From assembly GCA_031257115.1 (NCBI GenBank), contig JAIRPF010000181.1:1-39163 (forward strand): 39,163 bases of DNA. Direction: 5' to 3'. Below, piece after piece: positions 6,679 through 37,051 of the stretch. This stretch comes from Accumulibacter sp. Its GTDB lineage: Bacteria > Pseudomonadota > Gammaproteobacteria > Burkholderiales > Rhodocyclaceae. The translations under genes were made by a program, and so were the position numbers. Position 1 is the stretch's first letter; each line of letters starts with the position of its first letter. Below the pieces are notes generated by a model that searched no databases, was not told the origin of the DNA, and was given only the letters and a program-made list of their open reading frames with translations.

Positions 6679-7123
6679 ATGCGATTCGGGCGTACCAACG
6701 TAAAAGTATCTGGTCGAAGAACAGCGCCGCAACCCGGCCCTCGCCGGTGATTTCTCCATGTTCGTCAGCGACGTGGTGCGTTCCTGCAAGGCGATTTCGC
6801 AAAGCGTTTCCCTGGGCCGGCTGATCCTGCGCGAGAGGGACGTCACCACGATCGGCCGGCACGACGGCCTGCGGACCGGCCTGCTGCACAAGGCCAGCCC
6901 GATGGCCGTGCTCGTCGAGCAGGGCGGCGGCATGGCCTCCACGGGCGACGCCCGCATCGCCGACATCGTTCCCGCCAGCCTGCGCCCGCGCACCCCGGTG
7001 ATCCTCGGATCGCGGGATGAAATCGAGCGCATCGAACGCTACCACGCGGAATATCTCAACGGCGAAGACAGACCCTTCAGATCCCCGCTTTTCGGCACGC
7101 GCTCCCTGTTCCGCCCGGACTGA
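6679..7123 (+). pseudogene. fbp: Class I fructose-1,6-bisphosphatase remnant (internal deletion and frameshift)
   Basis: An original start ATG at 6679 has a ribosome binding site (GGGAG). The first codons read MRFGRTNV; the frame then shifts in an AAAA run at 6702-6705. Removing one A gives VKYLVEEQRRNPALAGDFS, a typical FBPase N terminus, which continues as FVSDVVRSCKAISQSVSLG. At about 6815 this joins directly to the FBPase C-terminal region: KASPMAVLVEQGGGMASTG, then IADIVPASLRPRTPVILGS and PLFGTRSLFR at the end. The central roughly 200 residues, carrying the metal and most substrate ligands, are missing, so the protein cannot be catalytic. The ATG at 6758 opens a 121-codon frame but should not be read as a functional gene. 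Class I FBPase is a Calvin-cycle and gluconeogenic enzyme; cbbF genes often lie next to cbbR. Confidence 0.85.
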
Positions 7124-10637: not shown

Positions 10638-11399
10638 ATGGGATCGCTGATTGGCAAGCGCGCGCTGGTGACGGCGGGAGGACAGGGAATCGGCAAGGCG
10701 ATCGTGAAAGGATTGCTCGAAGCCGGATGCGACGTCGCCGTTCATTACCATTCCAACGAACGGGGCGCGCGGGAGATCGTCGCGCTGGCCGAGTCGGTCG
10801 GGCGCAAGGCGCGCTGTTTCCAGGCGGATCTGACCGCCGACTCCGCCGCGGCCCGGACGGTCGACCAGGCCGCGGATTTTCTCGGCGGACTGGATGTCCT
10901 GGTTAACAACGCCGGAGGACTGGTGGCGCGCCGGGTTCTCGGCGAGGTGGATCCGTCGTTCTGGCGGCAGGTTCTCGACGTCAACATGACCTCAATGCTG
11001 CTGGTGACGCGCGCGGCCGCGCCGTATCTCGCCAGGGCCGGCGGCGCTTCCATCGTCAACATCGCGTCGCTGGCCGGCCGCAAGGGCGGGCACCCCGGCT
11101 CGCTCGCCTACTCGACCGCCAAGGGCGCGGCGCTGACGTTCACCCGCGCCCTGTCCAACGAACTGGCGCCCCAGGGCATCCGCGTCAACGCGGTGGCTCC
11201 GGGCCTGATCCTCGGCACCAGTTTCCACGACACCCACACGACCAGGGAATCCGCCGAGGAAACGATCCGGGGAATCCCGCTGGCCCGCGCCGGCGGCGTC
11301 GACGACGTCGCCCGCCCCGTCGTCTTCCTGGCCTCGGAATACGACGGATTCATCACCGGAATCACGCTGGACATCAACGGCGGCGTCTACTGCGCCTGA
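10638..11399 (+). CDS. SDR-family oxidoreductase (FabG-like)
   Basis: 253 residues. It is an NAD(P)-dependent dehydrogenase or reductase of the classical short-chain family. The cofactor loop is VTAGGQGIGKAI near the N terminus, NNAG follows at about residue 90, and the catalytic Ser (NIASLAGRKGG), Tyr and Lys (AYSTAKGA) are present. The C terminus (GITLDINGGVYCA) is typical. ATG 10638 has GGGAGG upstream; the frame is open for a further 216 codons upstream, but those cover repeats and cannot be coding. It is the first gene of a cluster with a sugar-acid dehydratase, a Zn-dehydrogenase and a LacI regulator, so it probably oxidises a sugar acid or reduces a keto acid. The exact substrate is unknown. 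Confidence 0.92.
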   Translation: MGSLIGKRALVTAGGQGIGKAIVKGLLEAGCDVAVHYHSNERGAREIVALAESVGRKARCFQADLTADSAAARTVDQAADFLGGLDVLVNNAGGLVARRVLGEVDPSFWRQVLDVNMTSMLLVTRAAAPYLARAGGASIVNIASLAGRKGGHPGSLAYSTAKGAALTFTRALSNELAPQGIRVNAVAPGLILGTSFHDTHTTRESAEETIRGIPLARAGGVDDVARPVVFLASEYDGFITGITLDINGGVYCA

Positions 11400-11440: not shown

Positions 11441-13096
11441 ATGATAAGGAACTGGAACGAAGAATCGCTGGATCACCGCAACGCCCTGCTCTACGCAATG
11501 GGCATTTCCGGGGAAGACGCCAGGCGTCCGGTCATCGGACTCGTCAATTCCTGGAATGAAATGAATCCCGGCCATTTTCCTTTCAGGGAAGTGATTCCCC
11601 TGATGAAAGAGACCATCCACGAAGCGGGCGGTCTGGCGCTGGAGTTGCCCATTTCGGGGATTTGCGACGGCATTTGCTCGAATACGCCGGGCGATCGCTA
11701 CACGTTGCCGGCCCGCGATCTGGTTTCCTCGGAAGTGGAAACGACCGCCGAACTGAACATGCTCGAAGGCATGGTCGTCATGGCGACCTGCGACAAGGTG
11801 GTGCCCGGCATGATCATGGGCGCCTTGCGGGTCGACATTCCCACGGTGATGTTCACCGGCGGCTACATGCTGCCCGGCGAACACCACGGGAAAATGCTGA
11901 CCCTGACCCATACCAAGCAAGCCTATGCCGCCTAGGTTGCCGGAGACATTCCCCGCGAAGAATACAAGGCGATCGTGCGCAACGCCTGCCCCACGCCCGG
12001 CGCGTGCCCCTTCATGGGAACGGCCAACACCATGTGCGCCTGTGCCGAGGTGCTGGGGCTTTCGCCCGACGGCAACGCCAGCGTGCGCAGCCAGAGCGCG
12101 GAGTGGCGGGAGATGGCCCGGCGGGCCGCGCTGCGCATCGTGGAAGCGGTGAAAAAGGAGGAGCGCCCTTCCGGCTTCATCACCCGGAGCAGTTTTGAAA
12201 ACGCGGTGCGCTACATGATGGCCACCGGCGGTTCCTCCAACAGTCTCCTGCACATTCCGGCCATGGCCCGGCAGATGGGTTTCGACATCACCCCCGAAAC
12301 CTTCGACGCGCTGAGCCGCGAAGTGCCGGTGCTGAACAGCATCTACCCCAGCCACAAGACCCATACCATGGTCGAATTCTCGCGGGCCGGCGGTCTGGGC
12401 GCGGTGCTGAAGGAACTGGTCCGGGCCGGCAAGATCGACGCTTCCGCCAGGGGGCTGTTCGGCGACATCGGGGAACGGGCGGAAAAGGCGGTGAACGGAA
12501 ATGCCGAAGTGATACGCCCGGCGAGCGACCCCATCCATCCCCAGGGCGGTCTCGCCGTGCTCCACGGCAACATCGGCACGGAAAGCGCCATCGTCAAGTT
12601 CAGCGCCGTGGACGAGGCGGCCTGGAAATTTTCCGGCAAGGCCAGGGTCTACGATTCCCAGGACGATGCCTGGAACGCCATCCTGAAAGACGAGATCGTC
12701 GCGGGCGACGTGGTCGTCATCCGCTACGAAGGGCCGAGGGGTTCGCCGGGAATGCCGCACATGGAAACCTTCATGGCCGCCGTTCTGGGCAAGGGCCTGG
12801 GAACGAAGATCGCCCTGGTTTCGGACGGGCGCTTTTCCGGCGCCACCGGCGGACTGGCCATCGGCCACGTGAGTCCCGAAGCCTACGAAGGCGGCAACAT
12901 CGCCTTCATCCGGGACGGCGACGCGATCCACATCGACATCGAAGCGCGCCGCCTGGATGTCGAGGTCGGCGAGGAAGAATTCAGGCGGCGGCGGGAAGGC
13001 TTCGTTCCGGTCGAAAAGCCCGCGACGGGCTGGCTGGCCCTGTATCGGAAAAACACCACCTCGGCGCACAGGGGCGCCACGGTTTTCTGGGACTGA
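11441..13096 (+). pseudogene. IlvD/EDD-family sugar-acid dehydratase interrupted by an in-frame amber codon
   Basis: A single frame of 551 codons, full length for the family, broken only by TAG at 11933-11935 (codon 165). Dehydratases of this family use a [2Fe-2S] cluster to convert sugar acids (or dihydroxy acids) to 2-keto-3-deoxy acids. Before the stop are PISGICDGICSNTPGDRYT (C75, C79) and VVMATCDKVVPGMIMG (C117). After it come [18 protein letters not shown] (C189), [49 protein letters not shown] and [21 protein letters not shown], all family-typical. The residues around the amber ([24 protein letters not shown]) match the normal, variable linker between conserved blocks, so one sense codon has simply become TAG. 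The start has GGGAG upstream and lies 41 bp after the SDR. As read normally, the product would be a 164-residue fragment lacking the third cluster ligand. Either this is a fresh nonsense mutation or the codon is suppressed. Confidence 0.9.
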
Positions 13097-13302: not shown

Positions 13303-14304
13303 ATGAAAGAACTTTTCAGGAATCGCCTTGGGAGAGTCGTCAGTCCCGGAGTGACGGATTTCATCGAGCGGCCGGTCATGGCGCCGGCGGACGACGAAGT
13401 GGTGGTAAAAATCGCCGCGAGCGCGATTTGCGGCAGCGACCTGCACATCTTTTCGGGCAGGCACCCCTCGGTTCCCCTCCCGGTCACCATCGGCCACGAG
13501 TTTTCGGGCCGCGTCGTCGCCCTGGGCAAGGATGTCGCCAGGGTCAGGGCGGGCGACCGCATAACGGTGGAGCCTTGTATCGTCCGCGGCCAATGCGACG
13601 CCTGCCTCCACGGCGATTACGGCTATTGCGAACGCATCAGCTTCACCTACCGGAACGGCGACGGCGCCATGGCCGATTACATCACCGTCAAGGAAGCCCA
13701 CGCGCACCTCCTGCCGCCGCGCCTGAGCGACGCCGCCGGCGCCCTGATCGAACCCCTGTCCGTGGCGACCCACGCGGTACGCCGCGCCGGCGTCGGGCTT
13801 GGGGAGAAGGTTCTCGTCATTGGCGCCGGCGCCATCGGCATCCTCGTCGCCGCCTTGTGCCGGCTGAGCGGCGCGGCGGAAGTCGCGGTCTGCGACCATT
13901 CCGCGTCCCGCCTGAGGGTGGCGAAAGAATTCGGCGCGAGCCACGCCATCGACCCCAGGGACGGCGGGGGACTCGAAGAGGCCGCGCGGGAAATTTCCGG
14001 CGGGGCCGGCATGGACAAAACCTTCGAATGCGTGGGCAAGGAAGGCACCTTCATTCAGGCCATGACCAGCCTTCGGCGGAACGGTCTCGCCACCATCGTC
14101 GGAATTTTCGAGAAACCGGACATCACCATCGACGCCATGCGTTTCATCAACCATGAAATCAGGGTGCAAGGCTCCCAGGGCTACTGCTGGGATTTTCCGA
14201 TAGCCCTGAAAATGTCGGAGCGGATCGACCTCGAAAAGCTCGTGACCCACGTATTCCCCCTCGAAGAACTCCAGAAAGCCCTCGAAACGTGCGCTTCCCC
14301 CTAG
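13303..14304 (+). CDS. Zinc-dependent alcohol/polyol dehydrogenase, C terminus cut by an amber codon
   Basis: 333 residues to the TAG at 14302-14304. It is an MDR-family dehydrogenase (sorbitol/threonine dehydrogenase type) that likely oxidises a polyol or sugar acid with NAD(P). The catalytic Zn region is AICGSDLHIFSG (C43) and TIGHEFSG (H65, E66). The Rossmann motif is VLVIGAGAIGILVAAL. The structural-zinc lobe reads EPCIVRGQCDACLHGDYGYC: C98, C101 and C109 are present, but the usual first ligand is R95 (CGC at 13585, one transition from TGC). After TAG the same frame continues AESIKVILKP and stops at TGA 14335-14337, which overlaps the LacI reading frame by ATGA. SIKVILKP is the normal family end. 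The missing final strand may be tolerated. ATG 13303 is preferred; 13255 is an alternative. Confidence 0.88.
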   Translation: MKELFRNRLGRVVSPGVTDFIERPVMAPADDEVVVKIAASAICGSDLHIFSGRHPSVPLPVTIGHEFSGRVVALGKDVARVRAGDRITVEPCIVRGQCDACLHGDYGYCERISFTYRNGDGAMADYITVKEAHAHLLPPRLSDAAGALIEPLSVATHAVRRAGVGLGEKVLVIGAGAIGILVAALCRLSGAAEVAVCDHSASRLRVAKEFGASHAIDPRDGGGLEEAAREISGGAGMDKTFECVGKEGTFIQAMTSLRRNGLATIVGIFEKPDITIDAMRFINHEIRVQGSQGYCWDFPIALKMSERIDLEKLVTHVFPLEELQKALETCASP

Positions 14305-14354
14305 GCGGAGAGCATCAAGGTCATCCTGAAACCATGAAAGAAGGAGCGCTTCCC

Positions 14355-15404
14355 GTGGCCACCATTCAAGACGTCGCATCCCGTTCGGGCGTATCCGTCA
14401 CGACGGTTTCCAATCTGCTGAACGGGCGAACCAACCGGATGAGCCAGGCGACCCTGGAGAAAGTCCGGTCGACCATCGCCGAGCTGAACTACCGGCCCAG
14501 CCACGCGGCGCGGCAATTGAAAACGGGCCGGATTCCGGTGCTCGGACTGCTCGTCCCGTCGATCGTCAATCCCATGTTCGCTTTTTTCGCGCGCGAAATA
14601 GAAATCGTCGCCAGGAAAAAATACGGCTACCGGATTTTCCTGGGAAACACGTACCGGCAAAAAACGGAGGAAACGATTTTCCTGGAGGACCTCCTGTCGC
14701 ATGGCGTGCGGGGCGCCATCGTCGTCTCCTCGCTGGCCGACCAAAGCCACTTCCGGGACGCGATCGAGCGGGGACTGAACATCGTCAACTACGACTGCCG
14801 GTCGACCGGGGACGACGCGGCGAAGATCGGCGCCGACAACGTATCGATGGACAACCACTGGGCCGGCAGGATCGCCGCCCAGAGCCTGATCGACGCCGGC
14901 TGCCGGCGTCTCGCCTTCGCCACGGCATCGGGCCGGACGACCAGCAGGCGCGACAAGATCGCCGGCTTCCTGGCGGCGGCCCGGGACGCCGGGCTTGCAA
15001 AGGAAGCGCGGGTCATCGAGGGCAAGGCGCAATCGGCCTATGGGGATACCGAACTGACCGAGCTGGGGAAAAATCTGGCGCGGGAAATCGCCACGACGCC
15101 GGGCGGGCGGCCGGACGGCGTGGTGGCGGTCAACGACATGCTGGCGATCGGCATGATCGCGGGATTCCGGGAACACGACGTCCGCGTCCCGGACGACATT
15201 TCGCTCGCCGGCATCGACGACATGGCGTTTTCCTCGCTCGTCAGCCCGGCCATCACCACCGTGCGCCCGCCCGTCGGGGAAATGGCCGAACTGGCCGTGC
15301 ACCGCCTGATGGCGCGGATGGAAGACCCGAAGCTACCCGCCAAAGATTTTCTCTTCACGCCAACGCTCGTGCGCCGGCAATCCGTGGCCGGCGTCGGCGG
15401 GTAG
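14355..15404 (+). CDS. LacI-family transcriptional regulator
   Basis: 349 residues. It is a local repressor, probably of the sugar-acid operon. The N-terminal helix-turn-helix is classic (ATIQDVASRSGVSVTTVSNL, then hinge RPSHAARQLKTGR). The effector domain follows (VLGLLVPSIVNPMFAFFARE, VAVNDMLAIGMIAGFREH, SLAGIDDMAFSSLVSPAITT). GTG 14355 is preferred because GAAGGAG lies eight bases upstream and the protein then starts as LacI proteins usually do (MATIQDVA). An ATG at 14334 would add MKEGALP and overlaps the ancestral dehydrogenase TGA by four bases. It ends in a TAG at a natural family end, so this TAG is taken as a true stop. Confidence 0.93.
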   Translation: MATIQDVASRSGVSVTTVSNLLNGRTNRMSQATLEKVRSTIAELNYRPSHAARQLKTGRIPVLGLLVPSIVNPMFAFFAREIEIVARKKYGYRIFLGNTYRQKTEETIFLEDLLSHGVRGAIVVSSLADQSHFRDAIERGLNIVNYDCRSTGDDAAKIGADNVSMDNHWAGRIAAQSLIDAGCRRLAFATASGRTTSRRDKIAGFLAAARDAGLAKEARVIEGKAQSAYGDTELTELGKNLAREIATTPGGRPDGVVAVNDMLAIGMIAGFREHDVRVPDDISLAGIDDMAFSSLVSPAITTVRPPVGEMAELAVHRLMARMEDPKLPAKDFLFTPTLVRRQSVAGVGG

Positions 15405-36338: not shown

Positions 36339-36460
36339 GCCTGGAATCCCATCCCGCAACAGAAACGAGAAGCGATGACGCGCCGGAAACAGTTCCACGA
36401 AACGGCGAGGCGAAGTCGACAAGGTATCGTTTTAGAGCGTTTTTGAATCAAACGCCCGCG
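36339..36460. other. Spacer from gpsA to the tandem array
   Basis: It ends with GAGCGTTTTTGAATCAAACGCCCGCG, the same junction sequence seen before array-like or module B DNA at about 1795 and 15537. No gene. Confidence 0.5.
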
Positions 36461-36780
36461 AATTTCCGTAACCGCCCACAGATTCCAGTAACCGCCAGCG
36501 AATTCCCGTAACCGCCCACAAATTCCCGTAACCGCCAACAAATTCCCGTAACCGCCAACAAATTCCCGTAACCGCCAACAGATTCCCGTAACCGCCAACA
36601 GATTCCCGTAACCGCCAACAGATTCCCGTAACCGCCAACAGATTCCCGTAACCGCAAGCGAATTCCCGTAACCGCCCACAAATTCCCGTAACCGCCAACA
36701 AATCCCCGTAACCACCCACAAATCCCCGTAACCACCAACAAATCCCCGTAACCGCCAACAAATCCACGTAACCGCCAACA
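36461..36780. repeat. Tandem array: 16 units of exactly 20 bp
   Basis: The unit is AATTCCCGTAACCGCCAACA; all 16 copies are exactly 20 bp, with no indels. Variation is limited to a few positions (first base A/G; T/C at 4; AACA/CACA/AGCG at the end). Units 2-4 (from 36481) and 10-12 (from 36641) show the same order of variants, so a block of eight units (160 bp) was apparently duplicated. Units 13-16 share AATCC. The array ends directly in a module B palindrome (36791). Because 20 is not a multiple of three, all frames cycle through a 60-bp pattern without stops on the minus strand; this is not a gene. No spacers, so not a CRISPR. Confidence 0.95.
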
Positions 36781-37051
36781 AATCCCCGTCATTCCCGCGA
36801 AAGCGGGAATCCAGCGCGTAAACTCCGGCGCGAAGCGCCGCAAGCCAAACCTCCCCCTGAAGGAGGTGTCGCGCCGAAAGCGTGACGGAAGGCGTCGGGC
36901 GACTCAAGTTTCCCTGGCCGCGCCATGGTACACTTCCCGCTTCCCTTCCCGGCTTGCCCGGCGCCATGCCGCCCGTTTCCATTCCTCCGTTCGTTCCCGA
37001 ACCGTTCCGGCCCGAATCCGGAAAGCGCGCCGCGCCCGCCGGGGGCGCGGG
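36781..37051. repeat. Composite B-A repeat and recJ leader
   Basis: Module B (36791-36810), linking hairpin CCGGCGCGAAGCGCCG (about 36827-36841) and forward module A (CCTCCCCCTGAAGGAGG, GCCGAAAGCGTGACGGAAG) to about 36902 form one intact composite. The remainder to the recJ start has no recognised feature. Confidence 0.65.

Follow-up and report, generated by a model that had tools for sequence, protein, structure and literature searches.

Gene content of the locus

The window (the whole stretch of DNA analysed, 39,163 nucleotides) is contig 131 of a host genome of 3.36 Mb in 212 contigs, given as 100% complete and 0.02% contaminated. The genes considered here are listed below; the relative is the same-genus genome (G025) that carries an intact orthologue of the dehydratase.

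10638..11399, forward strand: SDR oxidoreductase gene, uninterrupted, upstream of the dehydratase; matches the relative at 208 of 253 residues, with a dN/dS of 0.25
11441..13096, forward strand: IlvD/EDD-family dehydratase frame of 551 codons, open but for one internal TAG; 90% identity to the intact 551-residue orthologue
11933..11935, forward strand: in-frame TAG at dehydratase codon 165, where all 26 homologues have a sense codon
11441..11935, forward strand: truncated product of 164 residues under normal termination, without C189 and without the C-terminal domain
11975..13096, forward strand: downstream open frame with a GTG start 14 codons past the stop; rest of the N-terminal domain and whole C-terminal domain
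13303..14337, forward strand: zinc alcohol-dehydrogenase-like gene; position 95 is Arg, and an amber falls 10 codons short of the homologous end
14302..14304, forward strand: second in-frame TAG, codon 334 of 344; Arg in the relative, Asp in a Treponema homologue
14289..15404, forward strand: LacI/RbsR-type regulator frame, with a TAG end just past the last Pfam match

The TAG at codon 165 is the sole break in the dehydratase frame in this assembly, as an earlier note on this DNA had claimed; the frame is otherwise open as far as the TGA at 13094-13096. The lesion takes away more than 20% of the homologous frame, and the frame read from the GTG at 11975 is open for 373 codons. Homology spans the whole frame, again as claimed: Pfam matches to ILVD_EDD_N flank the amber (profile positions 1-132 before it and 150-306 after it), the second is followed by a match to ILV_EDD_C (1-191), and the presence of both domains places the frame in the IlvD/EDD family. 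The dehydratase matched 8 NCBIfam models, each with a score short of the curated cut-off (for instance 571 against 618.15 bits for ilvD). On contig 193 the host genome carries at least one further, stop-free IlvD/EDD-type gene.

Cysteines occur at dehydratase positions 75, 79, 117, 183, 189, 199 and 201. The earlier note had named C75, C79, C117 and C189 as cluster cysteines; all four are present, and when the intact relative is aligned with two solved dihydroxy-acid dehydratases C117 and C189 stand opposite cysteines, whereas C75 and C79 have no counterpart. Canonical iron-sulphur dehydratases of this type have three conserved cluster cysteines. Gly44, common to the window and 12 of 12 close homologues, faces the Cys after 'TP' in the two solved enzymes, at what we take to be the first canonical position, and the window dehydratase lacks the canonical three-Cys set in that only C117 and C189 align. 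A C75-x3-C79 motif was seen in the window dehydratase and in all 12 close homologues (L086-L096 and L111). Since C75 and C79 face no cysteine and glycine stands at the Cys site, the pair is a feature of the subfamily and not canonical ligands; a subfamily with Gly44 and C75-x3-C79 may possibly ligate its cluster differently.

The second amber reported for the next gene is real, but cuts only the last 10 codons from the alcohol dehydrogenase gene. Homology continues through these ten codons: the relative shares 6 of the 10 residues and the Treponema copy 8, and comparison with the relative gives 4 synonymous and 4 nonsynonymous changes. Branch counts for the alcohol dehydrogenase (26 against 24) give no acceleration; the window departs at three of 75 invariant columns and the relative at one of 73. 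One of the three is position 95 (13585-13587), presumably part of the structural-zinc lobe of the family, which is Arg in the window, whereas the relative and 6 of 6 other homologues have Cys. Since the second amber is joined by the loss of a conserved cysteine, the operon appears to be losing its function; these departures speak weakly for relaxed selection on it rather than for a translational trick.

Other features of the contig were recorded. A fructose-bisphosphatase remnant lies about 4.3 kb upstream of the dehydratase (6758-7123, forward strand; FBPase_C profile 72-126 of 127). By eye, its reading is broken, the N-terminal piece running directly into the C-terminal one with the middle mostly gone, and a divergent LysR/CbbR-like gene adjoins it. 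PF00316 had no match in the host genome; the same search gave matches in 6 of 14 control genomes. On the strength of this remnant and of the missing PF00316 match, gene loss on the contig seems to be under way. A tandem array at 36390-36849 has a 20-nt unit in 16 overlapping copies at 20-nt spacing. A dispersed repeat with a core like CCGTCATTCCCGCGAAAGCGGGAATCC occurs in 12 copies in the window (identity at least 63%; positions 1694, 10010, 15633, 19128, 21391, 29449 and 36775, for example), with other repeat blocks near.

Homologues, origin and past selection

Dehydratase homologues were sought in 99 genomes, the window's own included. Among the matches listed, one same-genus genome (the relative) has an orthologue, of 90% identity and stop-free, and the next best matches are at most 41% identical. 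A protein identical to this orthologue is encoded by the Accumulibacter MAG isolate Kf353_bin148. Next in similarity come two Treponema MAGs (82 and 78%), of which one bears the same sample prefix, followed by Clostridia or Bacillota (71-78%). Because its nearest relatives beyond the genus are of these groups, the dehydratase gene was probably acquired from outside the genus. Synteny of the window with the relative was observed for the adjacent SDR gene alone; the dehydrogenase of the relative lies on another contig beside other genes.

The two Treponema MAGs (L087 and L111) carry the same dehydratase. In L087 its neighbours are the alcohol dehydrogenase and, judged by eye, two Gfo/Idh-like oxidoreductases, a setting pointing to transfer of a sugar-catabolic cluster.

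An internal stop was found in none of the 26 dehydratase homologues over the matched stretch (only 246 residues for L108), and the alignment at codon 165 proposed in the earlier note returned a sense residue in each of them. The 12 that are at least 71% identical to the relative comprise 10 with Tyr, one with Phe and one, the relative's own, with Trp; the other 14, which are more distant, have Leu (7), Phe (2), Val (2), Tyr (1), Trp (1) or Met (1). The column in another set (24 of 29 rows, at 34-41% identity, with the wrongly oriented L004, L005, L007, L022 and L026 left out) holds Phe 11, Tyr 5, Lys 4, His 2, Leu 1 and Met 1. The position is mostly aromatic or hydrophobic; Lys occurs in distant homologues, so the residue alone leaves a lysine derivative possible. 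TAG stands only in the window's own row among the matches listed, and the amber is restricted to one lineage. One further row, an IlvD/EDD homologue in the same-genus genome G017 (contig 179, 89883-90830), carries an in-frame TGA.

Comparison of the window dehydratase with that of the relative gave a dN/dS of 0.116 at a dS of about 0.46, with 0.092 upstream of the stop and 0.126 downstream. The two differ at 55 amino-acid positions (stop column counted); with six outgroups, 19 of the changes were assigned to the window branch and 25 to the relative, and 11 were left unassigned. Synonymous codon differences polarised by the Treponema copy in L087 divided into 45 window-like, 46 relative-like and 21 neither. 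At the 266 columns invariant in 12 homologues the window departs once (Lys to Arg), and in the mirror test the relative likewise departs once. A rough Poisson bound, with half of dS taken for the window branch, limits unconstrained evolution to at most 7% of that branch in any of 12 settings. Divergence of the dehydratase is not accelerated, and the statement that the frame shows no drift is borne out. Low dN/dS, balanced branch counts and one departure in 266 columns indicate that the dehydratase was constrained as usual up to a very recent time, if not to this day.

Reading of UAG in the host genome

The searches for pylS and for a CUA tRNA that the earlier note had called for gave nothing. 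Pyrrolysyl-tRNA synthetase was sought with TIGR02367 only, TIGR03912 and the pyl biosynthesis genes being outside the search, and had no match over the cut-off in the host genome (two weak matches of 24.9 and 23.1 bits against 178.15); in the control, weak matches appeared in 13 of 14 genomes and one over the cut-off in 1. A CUA anticodon was found in none of the 42 tRNAs matched. The set is without Ile-GAT and Ala-TGC, so some genes are unassembled or were missed and the absence of CUA is not absolute. The RF1 gene is uninterrupted (536.9 bits against a cut-off of 423.25).

Stop usage was surveyed in 773,820 bases (734,657 plus the window). The 537 sampled ORFs, picked by coding bias, end in TAG (104), TGA (352) or TAA (81). 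TAG stands between the T2SSE and T2SSF genes in L112, and between an ABC ATPase and a permease-type gene. No stop was found within 123 domain matches of five families, 115 of them over the cut-off (ABC_tran 56, AMP-binding 5, Peripla_BP_4 6, Response_reg 40 and adh_short 16).

A census of in-frame stops with coding signal over 60 codons on both sides, whose thresholds and ORF choice were our own and which overlooks short or weakly biased genes and any stop close to a gene end, the second amber among them, returned 28 (TGA 11, TAG 9, TAA 8). Two of these fall within the window, at 11933 and at 2204, the latter opposite a reverse-strand coding signal. When 8 census stops besides 11933 were checked by Pfam with the pieces taken apart, 3 had different domains on either side, 1 had the same repeat family and 4 were unmatched; the 3 with different domains (two TAG, one TGA) thus separate adjacent genes. 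The one with a repeat family is the TAA at 18680 of L123 (G000, contig 210), which splits a very long frame and is flanked by PATR autotransporter repeats.

In a UAG-reassigned code, UAG is expected to be frequent in genes and rare as a terminator, with RF1 lost or altered. Genome-wide recoding of TAG was rejected, since TAG is an ordinary terminator in the sampled ORFs, RF1 is intact and the 123 domain matches are stop-free. The genome gives no sign that the amber at codon 165 is read as an amino acid.

Explanations of the amber and comparison with known systems

The dehydratase gene has one premature stop and no other clear damage, and the mutation is most likely very recent. Very probably a nonsense mutation has made it an ordinary pseudogene of very young age, within an acquired catabolic operon where decay is setting in. 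This operon, made up of the SDR, the IlvD/EDD-type dehydratase, the zinc alcohol dehydrogenase and the LacI-type regulator, would serve sugar or sugar-acid catabolism; it was probably acquired and dispensable, and its decay seems to have begun very recently in this Accumulibacter-like lineage. A point mutation would have turned codon 165 into TAG, and RF1-mediated termination there would leave a 164-residue fragment without C189 and the C-terminal domain, so that the enzyme would be lost. The mutation would be too young for further damage in the dehydratase. The neighbouring alcohol dehydrogenase has a late amber of its own and has lost a conserved cysteine. Three findings count against a young pseudogene: ambers in two adjacent genes are more striking than one, the recognisable codons past the second amber would also be explained by readthrough, and the alcohol dehydrogenase branch counts are without acceleration.

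It is unlikely that the stop is an assembly or consensus error, or a minority strain variant that entered the assembly, the population having an intact gene. The fragmentation of the assembly (212 contigs) and the fully constrained appearance of the rest of the dehydratase would fit such an error. Single-base errors that give clean in-frame stops are uncommon in consensus assemblies, which counts against it, as does the neighbouring gene, whose own amber and lost conserved cysteine make relaxed selection on the operon plausible.

Amber readthrough, by an unassembled suppressor tRNA, a leaky context or a near-cognate tRNA, that yields enough full-length enzyme is very unlikely. A CUA anticodon is missing from the 42 tRNAs, RF1 is present, TAG is an ordinary terminator here (between T2SSE and T2SSF, for example) and no stop interrupts the 123 domain matches. 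The positive evidence for readthrough is that constraint was strong in the past both before and after the stop and that one operon has two ambers; to this may be added the tRNA set without Ile-GAT or Ala-TGC, a sign that the assembly misses some genes.

There is little to commend a split gene, in which translation would restart at GTG 11975 and the separately made fragments would combine into an active enzyme. The GTG lies 14 codons past the stop and its frame runs on for 373 codons; the break falls inside the Pfam N-terminal domain, between C117 and C189, and none of the 26 homologues is interrupted over the matched stretch (for L108, 246 residues only). It is likewise highly improbable that the amber arose before the lineage parted from its close relative and that efficient readthrough or a suppressor missing from the assembly decodes it, with both operon genes functional. 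The Trp of the relative, against Tyr in 10 of 11 other close homologues, requires at least two codon steps, and TAG lies on one of the two shortest routes; a Tyr to Trp change through TAG would fit an amber-bearing ancestor without showing it. Pyrrolysine at codon 165 was rejected as next to impossible, with no synthetase over the cut-off (24.9 against 178.15 bits at best), no CUA tRNA found, Lys in 0 of 26 homologues of the main set and known pyrrolysine proteins given in the accessible part of PMC3941956 as almost only methylamine methyltransferases and their homologues, even though the UAG codon lies within a catabolic enzyme and Lys in 4 of 24 distant homologue rows means that the fold does not forbid a lysine-like residue.

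Of the three options in the earlier note, a very recent mutation fits best, and the suppressor tRNA and the pyrrolysine or other recoding are without support in a genome whose tRNA set is incomplete. As a young pseudogene the dehydratase would give a further view of gene loss at a stage before secondary decay, here in a lineage that has an Accumulibacter MAG as its nearest named relative. Readthrough, if shown, would mean amber decoding in a presumably betaproteobacterial lineage without a found synthetase or tRNA, and would be a real surprise.

The dihydroxy-acid dehydratases 6nte and 6ovt and the L-arabinonate dehydratase 9evv have the same two Pfam domains as the window frame, and 6nte matches residues 13-547 of the dehydratase of the relative. 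Unlike the solved IlvD/EDD dehydratases, that of the window has Gly44 at the first Cys position and the additional C75 and C79. With pyrrolysine-containing proteins it has an in-frame UAG in common; it differs from them in its unrelated protein family and in the lack of a synthetase over the cut-off and of a CUA tRNA. The titles and abstract openings of literature on pseudo-pseudogenes and on Accumulibacter or termite-gut pseudogenes held no comparable case. Pseudogenes of Sodalis can still be transcribed, according to the available text of PMC7067036.

The closest parallel is offered by Salmonella, and it weakens the premise of the earlier note that a dead gene soon gathers other damage. Of the 378 Salmonella pseudogenes in the available text of Kuo and Ochman (2010; PMC2916853), 346 have a single inactivating mutation, which in 131 of these 346 is a premature stop, and most pseudogenes show little or no sign of accelerated divergence. 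Unlike that study, the present case comes from a fragmented assembly with one informative close relative and with synteny only for the adjacent SDR gene. Like the young single-lesion pseudogenes described there, the window dehydratase has one inactivating premature stop and no acceleration; judged by this analogy, its pattern is that of a newly formed pseudogene.
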